NCBI GenBank assembly: GCA_031255615.1
Contig: JAIRSD010000016.1
Location: 1-10,656 of the forward strand
Length of the DNA stretch: 10,656 nt
Direction: 5' to 3'
Source: Treponema sp.
Lineage (GTDB): Bacteria; Spirochaetota; Spirochaetia; Treponematales; Breznakiellaceae
Each line of letters begins with the position of its first letter. Within the stretch, counting starts at the first letter, position 1. The translations under genes were made by a program, and so were the position numbers. Shown piece by piece: positions 4,434 through 10,203 of this stretch. The notes under the pieces are model-generated. The model searched no databases. It was not told the DNA's origin and worked only from the letters and a program-made list of their open reading frames with translations.

Positions 4434-4702
4434 GCCGGCAGGGAGGCCGGACCCAGGGGCCGGGCCTTTTGGTTTTGGCGGAGTTTCGCGGCAGCCGCGA
4501 AACTCCGCATTGGGATGACTCCGCCGGGTTGCTGCGCCGTGGGCGCGGCAACTGGGAAGGCGGACATCCGCAGGGATGCGGATGTCCGCCCGCGCAAGGG
4601 ATAGGAGGGGTGCGGAGCAGACCCGGCGCGGAGCGCCGGGGCCGGAGCGCAGCGGAGCCCCGGATAGCCCGGTCCCCGGCCCGCAGGGCCGGGGATGCGC
4701 CC
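4434..4702 (-). repeat. Modular hairpin repeat element, copy A
   Basis: This non-coding array of hairpins reads in the minus direction and shares ordered blocks with copy B (9983-10203). Blocks: ATGCGCCC (4695-4702), CGGATAGCCCGGT (4661-4673), a 21-nt core at 4587-4607 (includes GCGCAAGGGATAGGAG) and a 17-nt hairpin at 4434-4450. Between them lie hairpins: CCCCGGCCC/GGGCCGGGG (4674-4694), CCCGGCGC/GCGCCGGG (4622-4640), GGCGGACATCCGC/GCGGATGTCCGCC (4559-4590), GTTGCTGCGCC/GGCGCGGCAAC (4528-4552, one wobble) and GCGGAGTTTCGCGGC/GCCGCGAAACTCCGC (4478-4508). The stems are mostly unrelated to those of copy B although the joints are identical. The edges are set by the outermost shared blocks and could extend further. 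Function unknown: it could be a mobile repeat, a DNA fold or a structured RNA. Confidence 0.85.
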
Positions 4703-4760
4703 AACCCACAATTTATATGCGGCATGTCCTAAACCGAGAGTTGCCGCAGTTCCCGCGGCA

Positions 4761-4799
4761 TTGTAGTAATTTTTTGTTCTTCCGGTATAATTAAAAGGA
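4761..4799 (+). promoter_or_regulatory. Promoter-like sequence and AAAAGGA just before the helicase gene
   Basis: A perfect TATAAT (4786-4791) lies 9 nt before ATG 4801, with a weak TTGTAG (4761-4766) 19 bp upstream of it. A transcript from this box would start near 4798 and be nearly leaderless. AAAAGGA (4793-4799) could instead be a ribosome site, but it is only 1 nt from the ATG, which is unusually close. Local base composition turns AT-rich here after the GC-rich array. Confidence 0.5.
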
Positions 4800-4800
4800 T

Positions 4801-6576
4801 ATGTTTACGGAAAAATCCTCGGAAGGGATTGACCAGGGCTCCGGCGCTGTGAAGCCTTTAATCGTGCAGAGCGATCGTACCCTGCTTCTTGATGTACATG
4901 CCGATGCCGCCGGGGAGGCGCGGGCCGCGATTTTGCCCTTTGCGGAACTGGAAAAATCTCCGGAACATATCCATACTTACCGGATTACCCCCCTGTCCCT
5001 CTGGAACGCCGCCAGCGCGGGGCTTTCTCCCGCCGATATTATGAAGGTCATCGGCGCATACAGCCGCTATGCCGTGCCTTCCGGAATTTTGGAAGCCTTT
5101 GCCGACACCATGTCCAGGTATGGGAAAATCAGGATGGTCTCCTCCGGGGCGGCGGCGGGGAAGATCGGCGACACCCTGTTCCTTTGCTGCGAAAACGAGG
5201 TGATCGCCAGGGAGATTGGGGCCGCCAAGTCTTTGGAGAAATACCTACAGCCCGCCGGACTGTCCTCCCTGCCCGACGGTTCCCCGCTGGATGACGTGCC
5301 GGATAACGTGCCGGGGGGGGCCTTTCTCCTGCGCTTGATTGACCGGGGCACGGTCAAACGGGAGCTTATCCGTCTGGGCTGGCCGGTCAAGGACGAGGCC
5401 CCCTTTGTGGAGGGCGAGGAACTGCGGATGGAACTGCTGCAGACCAGCCGTTCCGGCCGTCCCTTCGCCCCCCGGGACTATCAGTGGGACGCGGCCCGCT
5501 CGGTATGCGGGGACGGGGGCCCCGGCACGGGCTACGGGGTGGTGGTGCTGCCCTGCGGGTCGGGGAAGACCGTGGTGGGGATGACCGTCATGTCCCTTTT
5601 GAAGACCAATACCCTGGTGCTTACCACCAACGTGGCCGCCGTGCATCAGTGGATCGAGGAATTGCTGGACAAGACCGATCTAAAGCCGGAGGATATTGCC
5701 GAATATACCGGGGATTCCAAATCGGTGGCCCCTGTTACCATCGCAACCTATCAAATTGTTACCTGGCGGCCGGATCGGGGGGGGGATTTTCCCCATTTCC
5801 GCCTGTTCCGGGAACGGTCCTGGGGGCTTATCGTCTATGATGAGGTGCATCTCCTTCCCGCGCCGGTGTTCCGGGTAACCGCGGAACTCCAGGCGGTCCG
5901 GCGGCTGGGGCTTACCGCTACGCTGATTCGGGAAGACGGCGCCGAGGACGCGGTGTTCAGCCTGGTGGGGCCCAAGCGCTGCGACGTGCCCTGGAAGGAT
6001 CTGGAGGTTCAGGGCTGGATCGCGGAGGCCATCTGCACGGAGATCCGCCTGGATCTCCCCGAAAATATGAAGATACCCTATGCGGTCGCATCTCCCCGGG
6101 AGAAGTACCGAATCGCCAGCGAAAATCCCCTCAAGGGGGACGCGGTCCGGCAGCTAGTAGAAAATCATCCGGAAGACCAAATTCTCGTCATCGGCCAATA
6201 CATATCCCAGTTGGAAGCCATGGCCCGGATCCTTAACGCCCCCCTAATCACCGGAAAAATGGCGAACCCGGAGCGGGAGCGGATCTACGCCGCCTTTAAA
6301 CGGGGGGAACTGCGGGTAATTGTGGTGTCCCGGGTGGCCAACTTCGCCATCGATCTACCCGACGCTTCCTGCGCGGTGCAGATTTCCGGATCCTTCGGGT
6401 CCCGGCAGGAGGAAGCCCAGCGGCTGGGGCGGATCCTGCGGCCCAAGGGCGGGAAAAACGCATGGTTCTACACCCTGGTATCTCATCGGACGGTGGAGGA
6501 AGATTTTGCCGGCAACCGGCAGAAGTTCCTCGCCGAACAGGGTTACAAGTACACTATTCAGCATTGGACGGCCTAA
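4801..6576 (+). CDS. XPB/ERCC3-family superfamily 2 DNA helicase
   Basis: This is a 591-aa ATP-dependent 3'-5' DNA helicase/translocase like eukaryotic XPB. Bacterial members unwind DNA and are assigned to repair, though their cellular role is poorly defined (family knowledge). Residues 1 to about 215 form the XPB-type N-terminal region, with KPLIVQSDRTLLLDVHADA (18-36) as a probable conserved start. Motifs: FAPRDYQWDAA (Q-like), Walker A LPCGSGKT (Lys256), DEVH box (347-350), LGLTATLIREDG (motif III plus the RED-like segment typical of XPB), VVSRVANFAIDLPDA (motif V) and QRLGR (motif VI, 540-544). Length and motif order fit an intact protein. ATG 4801 is the first start; GTG 4849, just before KPLIVQ, is an alternative with no better ribosome site. 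G8 (5313-5320) and G9 (5777-5785) tracts lie inside the gene. The next gene starts with no gap, so the two are almost certainly cotranscribed. Confidence 0.95.
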   Translation: MFTEKSSEGIDQGSGAVKPLIVQSDRTLLLDVHADAAGEARAAILPFAELEKSPEHIHTYRITPLSLWNAASAGLSPADIMKVIGAYSRYAVPSGILEAFADTMSRYGKIRMVSSGAAAGKIGDTLFLCCENEVIAREIGAAKSLEKYLQPAGLSSLPDGSPLDDVPDNVPGGAFLLRLIDRGTVKRELIRLGWPVKDEAPFVEGEELRMELLQTSRSGRPFAPRDYQWDAARSVCGDGGPGTGYGVVVLPCGSGKTVVGMTVMSLLKTNTLVLTTNVAAVHQWIEELLDKTDLKPEDIAEYTGDSKSVAPVTIATYQIVTWRPDRGGDFPHFRLFRERSWGLIVYDEVHLLPAPVFRVTAELQAVRRLGLTATLIREDGAEDAVFSLVGPKRCDVPWKDLEVQGWIAEAICTEIRLDLPENMKIPYAVASPREKYRIASENPLKGDAVRQLVENHPEDQILVIGQYISQLEAMARILNAPLITGKMANPERERIYAAFKRGELRVIVVSRVANFAIDLPDASCAVQISGSFGSRQEEAQRLGRILRPKGGKNAWFYTLVSHRTVEEDFAGNRQKFLAEQGYKYTIQHWTA

Positions 6577-8781
6577 ATGGAAACTATATTCCATAGTCAG
6601 GATCAGTGGAAATCCGCCATGATGACCCTGCCGGATGATGTCTTTTTTGATCTTCTCCGCAGTGTGTTTGGCCCCATCAAGACCCCCTTCAACAAACAGA
6701 ACCTTCTGGCGGAATTGGCGGCCTTTCTTTCCCGTGACGATATCCGGCGGAACCTGGCGGCCTATATTAACGAGGCGGATGCCCAGGTGATAGCGGCGGT
6801 GGCGGCGCTGGGCAGGCCCACGGCGGGGGAACTGGAACAGTTCTTCGACAACGATGGAGAATTCTCCGCCCTTCTTCTCAACCTGGAGGAAAGACTCATC
6901 CTTTACCGTTTCCGGGAGGGGGAGATTTTTCGGCTGGCCTTGAATCCGGTGCTGGCCCCGGTATTGCGGCCCATCGTGGAGGATCCCCGCTGGCTTTTCC
7001 CCTCCTTCCCCTTGCCGGAGGATTCGCCGAATTGGGCGGCTCCGAAGGATCCGGCGGCTCCTTCGGAGCCGATGAATCCTCCCCCACACATGGCGGAATC
7101 CGGGTGGAGGGACGACCGGATGTTCGCGGCCCTGCTCTCCTTTTTTTTGGAGGAGGGCGGTTTCTCTGATCCGGGAAGCCGGCGCCGCAAAAAGGTGCTG
7201 GACATGGGGAAACGAATATTCCCCGGCCTGGATCTGGAAGCGGCCTTTCACTGTTTTCTCCGCCTGGGGTTAATCCGCGGCGCCGCCGGTCCGGAGGGGG
7301 AAACGCTGATCCCGGAAAAACACGCCCTGGAGGATTTTCGGGATCTTGATCCCCGCAGCCGCTCTGTGTACTGGACCGCGGGGCTGGTCGAGGCGGGGGA
7401 CAATGGGGATTCCCCCTCCGGTGAAAGCTCCGCGCTCCCCCTGCTGCGGGGCCGGATCCGCCGGCTGGCCAAGATTATCGACGGCGTAGTAAGTCTTTTG
7501 GAGGAGGGCCGGGTTTACCCCGTTGAAACCCTGGGCCGCCTCCTGTTCATCCTGGTCAGGAAAGAGAACGGCGCGTCTCTGGCGCCGCCTATGGATTTTC
7601 CGGATATTACCGGCCTCTGCGGGGCCCTGGTTAAGGCGGGATTGCTGTGCCGGGTTTCCCAGGGTTACCGCCTTCCCGGCGAATCCTCCGAAGAGCGGAC
7701 GACGCCGGTCTTGACGATGGACGCCCCCCTCTTTTGCCTGCTGTACCCCGGCGTCGATTTCGCCGACGTCCTGGCCCTGGCTTCCTTTACCGCGGTGCGG
7801 GAAACCGGATCGGTCTTTCGCTTTGAATTGACCCGGGAATCCTGCCTGAGGGGTTTCGAGCGGGGCATAAGCGCCGGGGAAATGGGGGAACTGTTAACCC
7901 GGCTTTCGGGGGACCGGGTCGAATCGGCGGTGTTCTGGACCCTTGCGGATTGGGAAAAGCGCAGCAGAGAGGTGGCCCTTTTTGAGGGGACCATTCTCGC
8001 CCTCTCCCCGGAGCGCCGGTATTTGGCGGAGACGGAGGCCCTGGCGGTGCTGATTCGGCGGGAATTGGCTCCGGGGCTCTACCTGCTCGTCCCGGAGGCC
8101 AGGGCAGTGGAAGTCTTGCGGAAGGCGGGGATAGAGGTGATTTCACATTCCCCCGGGCCGGAGGGGGAGAATTTTTTTGCGGACGGATCCAGCGGGGCGA
8201 GGGAAAGGGGACCCGTCCAACGGGCTCAAGGATCCCGCCGTCTTTTCTCCTCCCTGGAGGGGGGGCCGGATATTCCGGGAAAGGGGGCCGAAGGGATTAC
8301 CCCCGCGGCCCCGGAGGAACCCGCCGCCCTGGGCCGGGACGGGGAGGCGCTCAAGGACGCTTTCCGCAAAACCCTGGCGGCCCGTTCCCTTTCCCTTAAC
8401 GATCGGAACGAATTGGCCGCCCGGATTGAGCGGCGGCTGGTGCTTACCGAATCCCAGCTTAACGCCGATTCGCTGCGGGCGGAAAAACTTGAAGCCCGGG
8501 GCCTGGATTATGTGGGAAAGGCCTCCATCGCCCGGCAAGCCATTAGTTCACATTCCCTCCTGGAGGTAGTATGGTCCTCGCAGGAGGGGGGGGAGCGGCG
8601 GATTCTGGCCTTTCCCCTCAATCTGGAAAAGTCCGGAGGGGACAGCATTCTGGTGATTGGAGATTCACAGAATCCCGGAAATGTCCGGCCCGCGCTTCGT
8701 ACTCCCGGAGACACTATTCGTATTCCCCTGGGGAAGATAAGTCTTTTACGCCGAATAAAAAAATCAATATTCGAGATGTAG
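6577..8781 (+). CDS. XPB helicase-associated protein with WYL-like C-terminus
   Basis: This 734-aa protein has its ATG immediately after the helicase TAA, so translation is probably coupled. Residues 1-147 are a helical region with repeated short helices. A Pro-rich linker (about 148-172) follows, then winged-helix-like segments. Around 499-520, GLYLLVPEARAVEVLRKAGI resembles the XPB/Ssl2 N-terminal-like (Helicase_C_3) domain found in stand-alone helicase partners. A Gly/Pro-rich disordered linker spans about 520-590. The C-terminus (about 655-731; SLLEVVW, RRILAFPLNL, GDSILVIGDS, IRIPLGKISLLRR) has the strand pattern of a WYL-like barrel. From memory, mycobacterial genomes carry a comparable large protein beside their XPB gene; I could not check homology. 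Likely role: DNA- or nucleotide-binding partner that loads or controls the helicase (inference). Archaeal Bax1 is an analogous partner but is a nuclease, and I see no Bax1 nuclease motif here. Domain calls are tentative; the gene itself is certain. Confidence 0.85.
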   Translation: METIFHSQDQWKSAMMTLPDDVFFDLLRSVFGPIKTPFNKQNLLAELAAFLSRDDIRRNLAAYINEADAQVIAAVAALGRPTAGELEQFFDNDGEFSALLLNLEERLILYRFREGEIFRLALNPVLAPVLRPIVEDPRWLFPSFPLPEDSPNWAAPKDPAAPSEPMNPPPHMAESGWRDDRMFAALLSFFLEEGGFSDPGSRRRKKVLDMGKRIFPGLDLEAAFHCFLRLGLIRGAAGPEGETLIPEKHALEDFRDLDPRSRSVYWTAGLVEAGDNGDSPSGESSALPLLRGRIRRLAKIIDGVVSLLEEGRVYPVETLGRLLFILVRKENGASLAPPMDFPDITGLCGALVKAGLLCRVSQGYRLPGESSEERTTPVLTMDAPLFCLLYPGVDFADVLALASFTAVRETGSVFRFELTRESCLRGFERGISAGEMGELLTRLSGDRVESAVFWTLADWEKRSREVALFEGTILALSPERRYLAETEALAVLIRRELAPGLYLLVPEARAVEVLRKAGIEVISHSPGPEGENFFADGSSGARERGPVQRAQGSRRLFSSLEGGPDIPGKGAEGITPAAPEEPAALGRDGEALKDAFRKTLAARSLSLNDRNELAARIERRLVLTESQLNADSLRAEKLEARGLDYVGKASIARQAISSHSLLEVVWSSQEGGERRILAFPLNLEKSGGDSILVIGDSQNPGNVRPALRTPGDTIRIPLGKISLLRRIKKSIFEM
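7038..7070. repeat. Perfect 12-bp inverted repeat inside the helicase-partner gene
   Basis: GGCTCCGAAGGA (7038-7049) and TCCTTCGGAGCC (7059-7070) are exact reverse complements with a 9-nt loop. The DNA encodes the Pro/Ala-rich linker (APKDPAAPSEP) between two domains, where a small insertion would be tolerated. Confidence 0.6.
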
Positions 8782-8966
8782 GGGGTTCGCGAAATATCTC
8801 TCCGGCGGGGAAGGGCGGACAGCCCCTGTTTTCCACGGCCGCGTCCCGGTTTGCCGGGCCTTCCGCGGGGCCGCAAGGCAGCCGCCGGCGCACCGTACTG
8901 TCCCGTCCGCTTACGCGCGGGCAGCCGGTCCCTTGCATTTTTAAGGCGGTCTGTCCATATATGTGC
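8782..8966. other. GC-rich intergenic spacer, first part
   Basis: Between the helicase-partner stop and the NYN leader I see no credible gene, RNA gene or intrinsic terminator. It holds the first copy of a 14-nt direct repeat, CGCCGGCGCACCGT (8883-8896); the second copy is at 8987-9000. A weak promoter-like pair TTGCAT (8933-8938) and TATATG (8958-8963) could serve the NYN gene, but the spacing (19 bp) and match are poor. Confidence 0.4.
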
Positions 8967-9021
8967 GGCTGTCCCAAAACCCTGCGCGCCGGCGCACCGT
9001 GAATGAGTTTTGGAACAGGCC
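8967..9021. promoter_or_regulatory. Inverted repeat in the leader of the NYN gene
   Basis: CTGTCCCAAAAC (8969-8980) and GTTTTGGAACAG (9007-9018) are complementary at 11 of 12 positions, extended by GG/CC if one G is bulged. The 26-nt loop contains the palindrome GCGCCGGCGC (8986-8995). It ends about 56 nt before the NYN start. It could be an RNA leader structure or a protein-binding site. No T-run follows, so it is not a typical terminator. Confidence 0.5.
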
Positions 9022-9064
9022 CATGTATCCATGTTCATGGACTTTACGGACAGATTTTGTTTGT

Positions 9065-9070
9065 AAGGAG
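9065..9070 (+). promoter_or_regulatory. Ribosome binding site fixing the NYN start
   Basis: AAGGAG stands 6 nt before ATG 9077. This near-ideal site favours this start over in-frame starts up to 114 nt upstream. Confidence 0.8.
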
Positions 9071-9076
9071 AAGAAT

Positions 9077-9862
9077 ATGCCATTATTGCCATTTTCCAGC
9101 ATCAGCCAACAGACGGATCTGGGTCAGGAAAAATTGGCGGTTTTGATCGACGCGGACAACACCCAGGCGTCGATCATCGAGGGGCTTCTGGACGAAGTCG
9201 CCAAATACGGGGTGGCCAGCGTCAAACGGATCTACGGCGACTGGACCAGCACTCATCTGCGATCCTGGAAGGACAAACTCCTGGAATACGCGATACAGCC
9301 GATACAGCAGTTTTCCTATACCAGCGGAAAAAACGCCACCGATTCCGCCATGATTATTGATGCCATGGATTTGCTTTACAGCGAAAAATTAGACGGCTTC
9401 TGCATCGTTTCCAGCGATTCGGATTTTACCCGCCTGGCGGCCCGGCTGCGGGAAAGCGGTCGCACGGTCTACGGTTTTGGGGAAAAGAAAACTCCCCGGG
9501 CCTTCGTGTCGGTCTGCGACAAATTTATCTATACGGAAATACTGCGGGACAATCAGGAGGAGGCCGAGGAGGATGACGGCAAACCCGCCGCCCGGCTGCG
9601 GAAAGAGTTTAAGCCGGACCGGCGGCTCCTCAAGCTGCTGCGCGACGTGGTGGACGATCTGGCCGACGAGTCGGGCTGGGCCTACCTAGGGGCGGTGGGC
9701 CAAAAAATAAGCCTGCGCTCCGCGGATTTCGATCCCCGGAACTACGGATTCAGGAAACTGGGGGACCTCTTCCGCGCCGCCCCCCAATTTGAGACCGAGG
9801 AGCGGCCCCAGGAAAACGGTACGGGCCGGCAGGTCTACATCCGGTGGAAAAAACGAAAATAG
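9077..9862 (+). CDS. NYN-domain putative ribonuclease with C-terminal LOTUS/OST-HTH domain
   Basis: This is a 261-aa protein. Residues about 19-157 form a NYN (LabA/DUF88, PIN-like) domain. Acidic motifs: LIDADN (Asp25, Asp27), TDSAMIIDAMDLL (Asp89, Asp95) and SSDSDFTRLA (Asp114, Asp116), which together form the metal-binding site expected of a NYN RNase. VYGFGEKKTPRAFVSVCDKFIY is the usual closing segment. An acidic linker (QEEAEEDDGK) leads to a C-terminal region (about 178-258; LLKLLRDVVDDL, WAYLGAVGQKI, FDPRNYGFRKLGDLF) matching the LOTUS/OST-HTH winged helix, an RNA-binding module (family knowledge). RNA cleavage or processing is the likely activity; the substrate is unknown. ATG 9077 is chosen because AAGGAG (9065-9070) lies 6 nt upstream and homology begins soon after. 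The upstream extension of the frame runs through the leader hairpin and is not coding. It lies 295 nt after the helicase pair on the same strand, so a functional link is possible but not shown. Confidence 0.92.
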   Translation: MPLLPFSSISQQTDLGQEKLAVLIDADNTQASIIEGLLDEVAKYGVASVKRIYGDWTSTHLRSWKDKLLEYAIQPIQQFSYTSGKNATDSAMIIDAMDLLYSEKLDGFCIVSSDSDFTRLAARLRESGRTVYGFGEKKTPRAFVSVCDKFIYTEILRDNQEEAEEDDGKPAARLRKEFKPDRRLLKLLRDVVDDLADESGWAYLGAVGQKISLRSADFDPRNYGFRKLGDLFRAAPQFETEERPQENGTGRQVYIRWKKRK

Positions 9863-9982
9863 GCGCCCTTCCGCGGTCTTTGCCGCCGTCGTCCCCCTCG
9901 ATTGGGATGATCCGGTAACGGCGGTGGATTCCCGCGATCGCCGGTAAGCGTCAGCAGGGGATACGCCAGGTGTCGAGTATAT
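9863..9982. other. Gene-free spacer before element B
   Basis: Spacer between the NYN stop and the first shared block of element B. CCGGTAA occurs twice, near 9912 and near 9941, in a GC-rich context. No terminator with a T-run and no open frame with a recognisable product is visible. Confidence 0.4.
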
Positions 9983-10203
9983 GGGCGCATTTTTTGCGGC
10001 TCCGCCGCAAAAAACCGGGCTATCCGCTCTAACAAAAACCCTGCGGGTTTTTGTTCCGCTCCTATCCCTTGCGCGGGCGAAAGCCGTGCCCGGCACGGCT
10101 TTCGCCTTCCGAAAATCCGCGTCCCTGCGGATTTTCGGATTCCCGGTTTTTGCCCCGCAAAAACCCGGCGCATGAACCGGCATCCGCCGGCCTCCCTGCC
10201 GGC
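9983..10203 (+). repeat. Modular hairpin repeat element, copy B
   Basis: This is the plus-oriented partner of copy A. Shared blocks in order: GGGCGCAT (9983-9990), ACCGGGCTATCCG (10014-10026), a 21-nt core at 10059-10079 (starts CTCCTATCCCTTGCGC) and a 17-nt hairpin CCGGCCTCCCTGCCGGC (10187-10203). Hairpins between and around them: TTTTTTGCGGC/GCCGCAAAAAA (9990-10014), AACAAAAACCC/GGGTTTTTGTT (10031-10055), GGCGAAAGCCGTGC/GCACGGCTTTCGCC (10076-10106), TCCGAAAATCCGC/GCGGATTTTCGGA (10108-10139), GGTTTTTGC/GCAAAAACC (10145-10165) and CCGCCGGC/GCCGGCGG (10184-10205). All these arms are perfectly paired. Stems here are rich in A/T runs, whereas the matching stems in copy A are GC-only. The second hairpin, ending in GGGTTTTTGTT, could act as a weak terminator (inference). 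Confidence 0.87.

Follow-up and report, generated by a model that had tools for sequence, protein, structure and literature searches.

Two copies of a repeat in a Treponema contig

The window (the whole stretch of DNA analysed, 10,656 nucleotides long) contains genes for an ABC transporter ATPase, an FMN-binding protein, a CNNM/CorC-type protein, a purD-type enzyme, an XPB-like helicase and an NYN-LOTUS protein. Within one spirochaete family, 193 of 195 genomes contain matches to these genes, with 70–89% identity among the matches listed and Treponema sp. Cd354_bin128 among the best. Between the first two genes, at 541-602, lies a short degenerate direct repeat of GGAGTGAG units. Copy A of the repeat described here is located between the divergent purD and helicase genes, and copy B downstream of the NYN gene (Table 1). 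No element is present near the homologues of the purD, helicase and NYN genes fetched from relatives; the gene order differs there, so these element-free loci do not constitute an empty site for A or B.

The original prediction held that A and B share a terminus, a joint and a core in the same order, and that their first hairpins are unrelated in sequence yet paired. Both observations are confirmed. The window has two exact occurrences of the 13-nt joint ACCGGGCTATCCG, and two matches, with one mismatch tolerated, are found in none of 200 shuffles. The 21-nt core CTCCTATCCCTTGCGCGGGCG, exact in A and at 10059-10079 (plus strand) in B, has no match in any shuffle with three mismatches tolerated; this exactness of joint and core rules out chance similarity of the two copies. 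The 8-nt terminus GGGCGCAT is at 4695-4702 (minus strand) and 9983-9990 (plus strand). The first hairpin is perfectly paired in each copy, with arms TCCCCGGCCC and GGGCCGGGGA around TGC in A and the unrelated arms TTTTTTGCGGC and GCCGCAAAAAA around TCC in B. Both copies fold far more stably than their shuffles (z −7.28 for A and −10.73 for B). The further statement that the hairpins are perfectly or almost perfectly paired is correct for the first hairpins but not for the middle of A, which is of a GGGG...CACCCC subtype and not a single perfect hairpin.

Because conservation across copies ends at CGC, the core is delimited there, and the further hairpins of A and B form a variable tail on one side of it. 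A tail of the type GGGCG, hairpin, CGCCTTCC is present in three of 92 copies: the two in the window and one other (L097).

Table 1. Positions of the parts of copies A and B in the window
Feature	Position	Strand
Copy B conserved core, GGGCG to CGC	9983-10074	+
Copy B hairpin H1, 11 bp, loop TCC (GGA on minus strand)	9990-10014	+
Copy B joint J1, ACCGGGCTATCCG	10014-10026	+
Copy B hairpin H2, 11 bp, loop TGC (GCA on minus strand)	10031-10055	+
Copy B joint J2, CCGCTCCTATCCCTTGCGC	10056-10074	+
Flavo-1 (RF01705) match in copy B, full model, 30.1 bits (cut-off 42)	10009-10083	-
Copy B variable tail, further hairpins	10075-10203	+
Copy A conserved core	4592-4702	-
Copy A hairpin H1, 10 bp, loop TGC (GCA on other strand)	4673-4695	-
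Copy A joint J1	4661-4673	-
Copy A middle part, GGGG...CACCCC subtype	4611-4660	-
Copy A joint J2 and shared core, CTCCTATCCCTTGCGCGGGCG	4587-4607	-
Copy A variable tail, further hairpins	4434-4591	-

Architecture of the repeat family

The unit has the layout TTnGGGCGnn-H1-CGGGCTATCC..H2..CTATCCCTnnCGC, with TTnGGGCGnn-H1-(A/T)CGGGCTATCCnnT..-H2-..nnTnCTATCCCTnnCGC as a fuller consensus. Beyond its ends conservation drops to about zero in 94 mainly spirochaete copies, 22 copies from one genome (G020) and 55 others, in a profile for which only copies with matching terminal pairs were taken. The sets richest in spirochaetes, selected on locus number and motif, also contain a small number of other hosts (e.g. 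L016, L037, L091 and L118). A terminator was considered and rejected, as the boundary profile contains no T-run after the unit in either direction and the orientation to genes is mixed.

The dinucleotide following GCG is paired with the one preceding CGC, completely in 139 of 151 copies (six of 157 were left out because their 5' terminus was not recognised), while the best of 1000 shuffles has 93 fully paired. These pairs occur as CA/TG, TT/AA, TG/CA, CT/AG, CC/GG and GC/GC. The two bases between the purine loops form middle pairs, fully paired in 135 of 157 copies (best of 1000 shuffles, 96), in the combinations GC/GC, GT/AC, AC/GT, AT/AT, AA/TT, TT/AA and GG/CC. Covariation of the stems, by which the original prediction could be probed, thus goes beyond shuffles at both the terminal and the middle pairs.

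Four of 138 copies in the comparison of hairpins and subtypes had too little flank. Among 92 copies, extra hairpins number 0.83 per 150 nt downstream of the unit and 0.05 upstream, compared with 0.17 at random places. Downstream of the element in L028, tandem units of GGGCGAGCAGCAA, hairpin and TTGCGACCAGCCAGGACGCAT contain varying hairpins, and a similar stretch is present in L104.

Distribution and copy number

Eight loci were obtained from a scan of viral contigs and at least 120 from a scan of genomes, mostly spirochaete MAGs with some clostridial MAGs and flavobacteria; the JAI-series MAGs are presumably of termite-gut origin. The genome scan required TTGCGC, so its loci are a biased sample, and the terminal-pair evidence rests on later, unrestricted loci. 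A fixed pattern matches 21 of the 23 genomes reached via the loci, and the reversed pattern none. Many further copies with the same joints exist, contrary to the outcome that would have spoken against the original prediction. Plain decay of an ordinary repeat was rejected as an explanation, as the joints are more conserved than the flanks.

The distribution is patchy and the copy number can be high, ranging from 0 to 361 per genome. The maximum is reached in one 4.8-Mb Aquimarina genome; it is among the 24 of 52 sampled Aquimarina genomes with a match, the other carriers having one to three each. With the Rfam model RF01705, for which the best 150 candidates per genome were scored, 11–13 copies are found in each of five Aquimarina genomes with few fixed-pattern matches, and at least 150 in one Treponema MAG. 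A clostridial MAG (G013) contains 43 copies, 28 of them of the GGGG...CACCCC kind seen in copy A, and is the sole carrier among 249 genomes sampled from its phylum; a second clostridial MAG with the element, of the Oscillospiraceae (L103), comes from the genome scan. Horizontal arrival followed by amplification is the simplest reading of the 43-copy MAG. Misbinning is possible, but would leave its richness in a single subtype unaccounted for.

A cassette-like insertion beside the copy in L173 was rejected: the additional 2 kb in G020 is an insertion that contains a single element and is not flanked by two. Elsewhere, in L020 (3309-4268), two inverted copies with their CGC ends facing surround about 0.85 kb that resembles, by eye, a small insertion sequence, and in L159 (positions 5084 and 6329; G074) two inverted copies lie on either side of a dus-like gene.

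Relation to Flavo-1

Flavo-1 has been on record since 2010 as an RNA without a known function. The joint, hairpin and core of copy B match its Rfam model (RF01705) on the minus strand, aligning to positions 1-76 with the consensus pairs kept, at a sub-threshold score; copy A has no match to it at E values up to 5. In relative genomes the model exceeds its cut-off in 11 of 12, and in control genomes in none of 14. By score the window copies thus do not belong to Flavo-1 but are related to it. These matches also give a name to the Bacteroidetes repeats with GGGCTATCCGCT-like joints that the original prediction mentioned and left unnamed.

Joints and internal loops are common to the element and Flavo-1, on the same strand. 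Beyond the 76 nt of the Rfam model lie H1, a terminal stem that covaries and, for the spirochaete set, tails; the element is also dispersed in high copy, with stems exchanged at fixed loci. According to PMC9723704, Flavobacterium psychrophilum Flavo-1 hits are sense or antisense, with no consistent strand, and many are untranscribed. Searches of open-licence papers yielded no account of the whole unit, of its dispersal or of stems being rewritten at fixed places, and among the listed matches to the joint sequences as text strings in that literature none is related, judging by titles and the start of abstracts. The family is widespread and only partly known, with a Flavo-1-like core.

Fate of copies at fixed loci

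A gap between two genes that we take, from their sequences, to be lepA and dus contains the element in 34 of the 41 Aquimarina genomes examined (of 52); the seven without it include the 361-copy genome. The H2 modules at this place are short in 12 genomes, of type I in 13 and of type II in nine (L240, L247 and L270 were assigned by eye), and in eight of the 13 type I genomes the terminal stem is altered to CGGGC/GCCCG. On a tree of the flanking genes the module types are interspersed. The sisters L261 and L262 carry different types and also differ in the leader flanks, so that whole leaders seem to have been exchanged between species as well.

In five close Aquimarina species, 92–94% identical at lepA-dus, 30 loci resolve into eight orthologous groups and one singleton. 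Over 42 orthologous pairs, which are not independent of one another, the median identity is 0.972 for the joints, 0.938 and 0.915 for the flanks and 0.789 for the inner hairpin. Hairpin tips are thus replaced at shared loci: between L334 and L352 the inner stem is only 0.66 identical, next to flanks of 0.92 and 0.94, and in an Algibacter pair the joints are kept and the inner stem is swapped. In five of the 42 pairs the tip aligns better as its reverse complement than forward, clearly so in two groups (0.84 versus 0.72 for L342/L349 and 0.97 versus 0.91 for L348/L354), where the tip has apparently been inverted. A decayed copy, L360, differs from its orthologue L346 by three T-A to C-G pairs, with pairing still perfect. 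Pairing is not preserved everywhere, as some tips of old copies fold weakly (−1.1 kcal/mol for L343). At the L346 site the element is present in G024 and G025 and missing from G043, G050 and G053; no target duplication is seen at this single presence/absence site, the junctions of which are not alignable.

Within one MAG (Nm470_bin15), a family of seven copies of an H2 stem has one pair that appears as A-T, G-C, T-A and C-G, the rest being nearly constant. Among similar stems, two-sided differences number 497 against 78 others in H1 and 141 against 48 in H2, counts that are biased since only paired hairpins were collected.

Other palindromes occur in the same sequences. At L346 (1453-1490) and many other Aquimarina places there is a second dispersed, near-perfect palindrome, GACCTCACAGGTTT...AAACCTGTGAGGTC, with many copies per genome. 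Another (CCTTCGACT..GCTCAGG and CTTCGACAAGCTCAG) is found within H1 or H2 tips in L209, L211, L336, L342 and L353, and looks as if hairpins were nested in hairpins.

The original prediction offered two explanations for stems that change in sequence and stay paired, and both are supported. Selection on structure agrees with joints conserved beyond the flanks and with the covariation of paired positions. A mechanism that rewrites palindromes is favoured by the two-sided tip changes and the apparent spacer inversion. Some tips are poorly paired, several of them folding weakly.

Strand and nature of the folded molecule

Read on the plus strand, the mispaired middle pairs include 13 A.C and no G.T (10 of the 13 come from one combination), which points to the minus strand as the one that folds; in the terminal pairs the mispairs are opposite, with small numbers (four G.T and no A.C). 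By RNA folding energy the minus strand is the favoured one in 145 of 171 copies and the plus strand in 25. Among the unique hairpins of the mainly spirochaete set (113 copies), plus-strand TNC loops, equal to GNA on the minus strand, predominate by 49 to 10 (24 to 7 in H1, 25 to 3 in H2). The bias is weaker in tail hairpins (21 to 8), and unoriented hairpins elsewhere in these loci give 17 to 15. Outside this set it is absent, with one TNC and no GNA loop among 36 unique hairpins, so it is not a general rule. GNA loops form unusually stable mini-hairpins in DNA, according to PMC6479982 and PMC4686876. In the element, RNA-type GNRA or UNCG tetraloops are not preferred, making up 8 of 63 tetraloops in either sense.

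Flanking genes, called with a simple ORF finder after 52 copies at contig edges were left out, are found in all orientations, and orthologous copies in operon gaps have either strand sense (two versus four of six groups). This mixture makes a single cis-acting RNA role unlikely. We judge folded DNA more likely than folded RNA.

Candidate mobilising enzyme

Matches to PF01797 (Y1_Tnp) are present in 14 of 19 genomes, and none was found in G013, G014, G016, G017 and G022, MAGs that may be incomplete. In G010, a Y1-transposase-like gene occurs in about ten copies (L367-L376) that are 85–93% alike. Five of the 11 Y1-like copies fetched from this genome have an exact J2 word within 1.1 kb: five words in 19,365 flank bases against three in 88,761 control bases, with 0.65 expected (Poisson P 0.0006). 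In all five the CGC end faces the gene, and the association may be inflated by repeat-rich contig ends. An HUH histidine motif is expected of such proteins, and the two from G010 examined by eye are without these histidines. In G012, one complete copy adjoins a Y1 fragment. The fetched Y1 genes of G001, G005, G011 and G020 have no J words nearby (none at five loci). No mobilising enzyme, target duplication or clean empty site was found.

Discussion

An explanation to which we give an even chance is that A and B are copies of a dispersed DNA element with a Flavo-1 core, which acts as folded DNA and has its stems rewritten by template switching. The element would be about 90–110 nt long, its core being what Rfam calls Flavo-1. 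Its minus strand is predicted to form a junction in which the conserved joints hold together a short terminal stem (GCGnn/nnCGC), H1 and H2. It would move between hosts and multiply in some genomes, with an enzyme acting in trans that presumably recognises the folded strand through the joints and the ends. The hairpin arms would not be read by sequence, and template switching during replication could copy one arm onto the other or flip the spacer, so that stems stay paired as their sequence is replaced. Such switching accounts for stems that are new yet paired, and for flipped tips, without many lucky double mutations. According to PMC8604942, polymerase switching between the arms of inverted repeats results in arm homogenisation and spacer inversion, and PMC8794818 proposes that hairpins arise and are maintained through template switching. 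In favour of the explanation are the covariation, the uneven copy number, the lone carrier in the clostridial sample, the joints conserved beyond the flanks, the apparent tip inversions, the pairing kept in L360, the mixed gene orientation and the GNA loops of the mainly spirochaete set. Several observations weigh against it: no target duplication, clean junction or mobilising enzyme was found, the loop bias is absent outside the mainly spirochaete set, and the middle and terminal mispairs conflict on which strand folds. The persistence of the element at lepA-dus in most of the Aquimarina genomes examined looks more like retained function than recent movement, and the RNA energies that favour the minus strand may fit a folded RNA too. 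In a bolder version, which we put forward as a doubtful possibility, the Flavo-1 'sRNA' forms the core of an element that moves horizontally and acts as folded single-stranded DNA, tuned in one host group to DNA-specific GNA loops. Its enzyme would read only fold and joints, so that every stem could be rewritten at no cost.

Alternatively, the stems may be kept by ordinary selection, with point mutation and recombination between copies or species and no template switching, an account that we consider somewhat unlikely. Constrained joints, leader alleles seemingly exchanged between species (L261 versus L262) and gradual divergence in several groups all agree with it, and gene conversion from other copies could give the tip swaps; it is harder to reconcile with the divergent inner stem of L334/L352 beside similar flanks, the apparent tip inversions, the pairing retained in a copy with decayed joints (L360) and the excess of two-sided differences, for all the bias of that collection. 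It is rather improbable that Flavo-1 is a structured RNA that acts once transcribed, as a leader, an intercistronic or a small RNA, and that its compensatory changes come from selection for pairing in the RNA. In Rfam it is modelled as an sRNA, its minus-strand RNA folds are the more stable, the internal loops are purine-rich on that strand, the joints are conserved over a genus and, at lepA-dus, the minus strand would fall in the lepA leader on our reading of promoter motifs. The orientations of neighbouring genes and operon-gap copies, the antisense and untranscribed hits in F. psychrophilum and the lack of preference for GNRA or UNCG tetraloops argue otherwise.

A REP/RAYT-type system, in which the Y1 transposase-like protein of some hosts mobilises the repeats, is less probable still. 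The frequency of PF01797, the J2 association in G010 with CGC ends facing the gene and the copy beside a Y1 fragment in G012 are in its favour, against which stand the five genomes without PF01797, among them the 43-copy G013, the Y1 genes of four genomes without J words nearby, the two G010 proteins without the expected histidines and the possible effect of contig ends. Chance resemblance, or decay of ordinary repeats, has a negligible probability: the palindrome-rich, high-GC character of the region is all that suggests it, and the exact joints compared with shuffles, the covariation and the many further copies contradict it.

If the bolder version is correct, the repeats are a widespread family of bacterial elements recognised by shape, with a partner that may be a degenerate Y1-like protein. 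Seen as one portion of a larger element that is dispersed and spreads horizontally, Flavo-1 would direct the search to a protein that reads the joints, not to a regulon, and cautions that covariation in a dispersed repeat need not signify a functional RNA. In addition, the family provides numerous natural experiments on how bacterial palindromes arise, stay perfect and invert, in which template switching can be tested against selection.

Comparison with known systems

Like REPs and BIMEs with their RAYTs (TnpA-REP), the repeats are short, intergenic, palindromic and present in high copy, with a possible Y1-like link in one genome. They are set apart by description: a three-way-junction design, two joints, exchangeable stems and no consistent Y1 gene. 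PMC3733652 describes a tag, GTAG or CGTC, at the base of the REP palindrome, and CGTC-tagged repeats have been reported from Bacteroidetes and Spirochaetes. As regards a classical insertion sequence or MITE, the comparison is confined to the one presence/absence site, with no duplication seen and junctions that are not alignable.

In integrons, attC sites serve in recombination and are recognised in the form of a folded single strand; the sequence of their stems is poorly conserved. The element may resemble them in both respects; unlike them, its copies are dispersed and, as far as their coordinates show, not set in arrays beside an integrase. With quasipalindrome or template-switch mutation, as described in PMC8604942 and PMC8794818, the family shares apparent arm homogenisation and spacer inversion; those cases concern yeast coding DNA and RNA genes, whereas here the changes affect a dispersed bacterial repeat with fixed joints.
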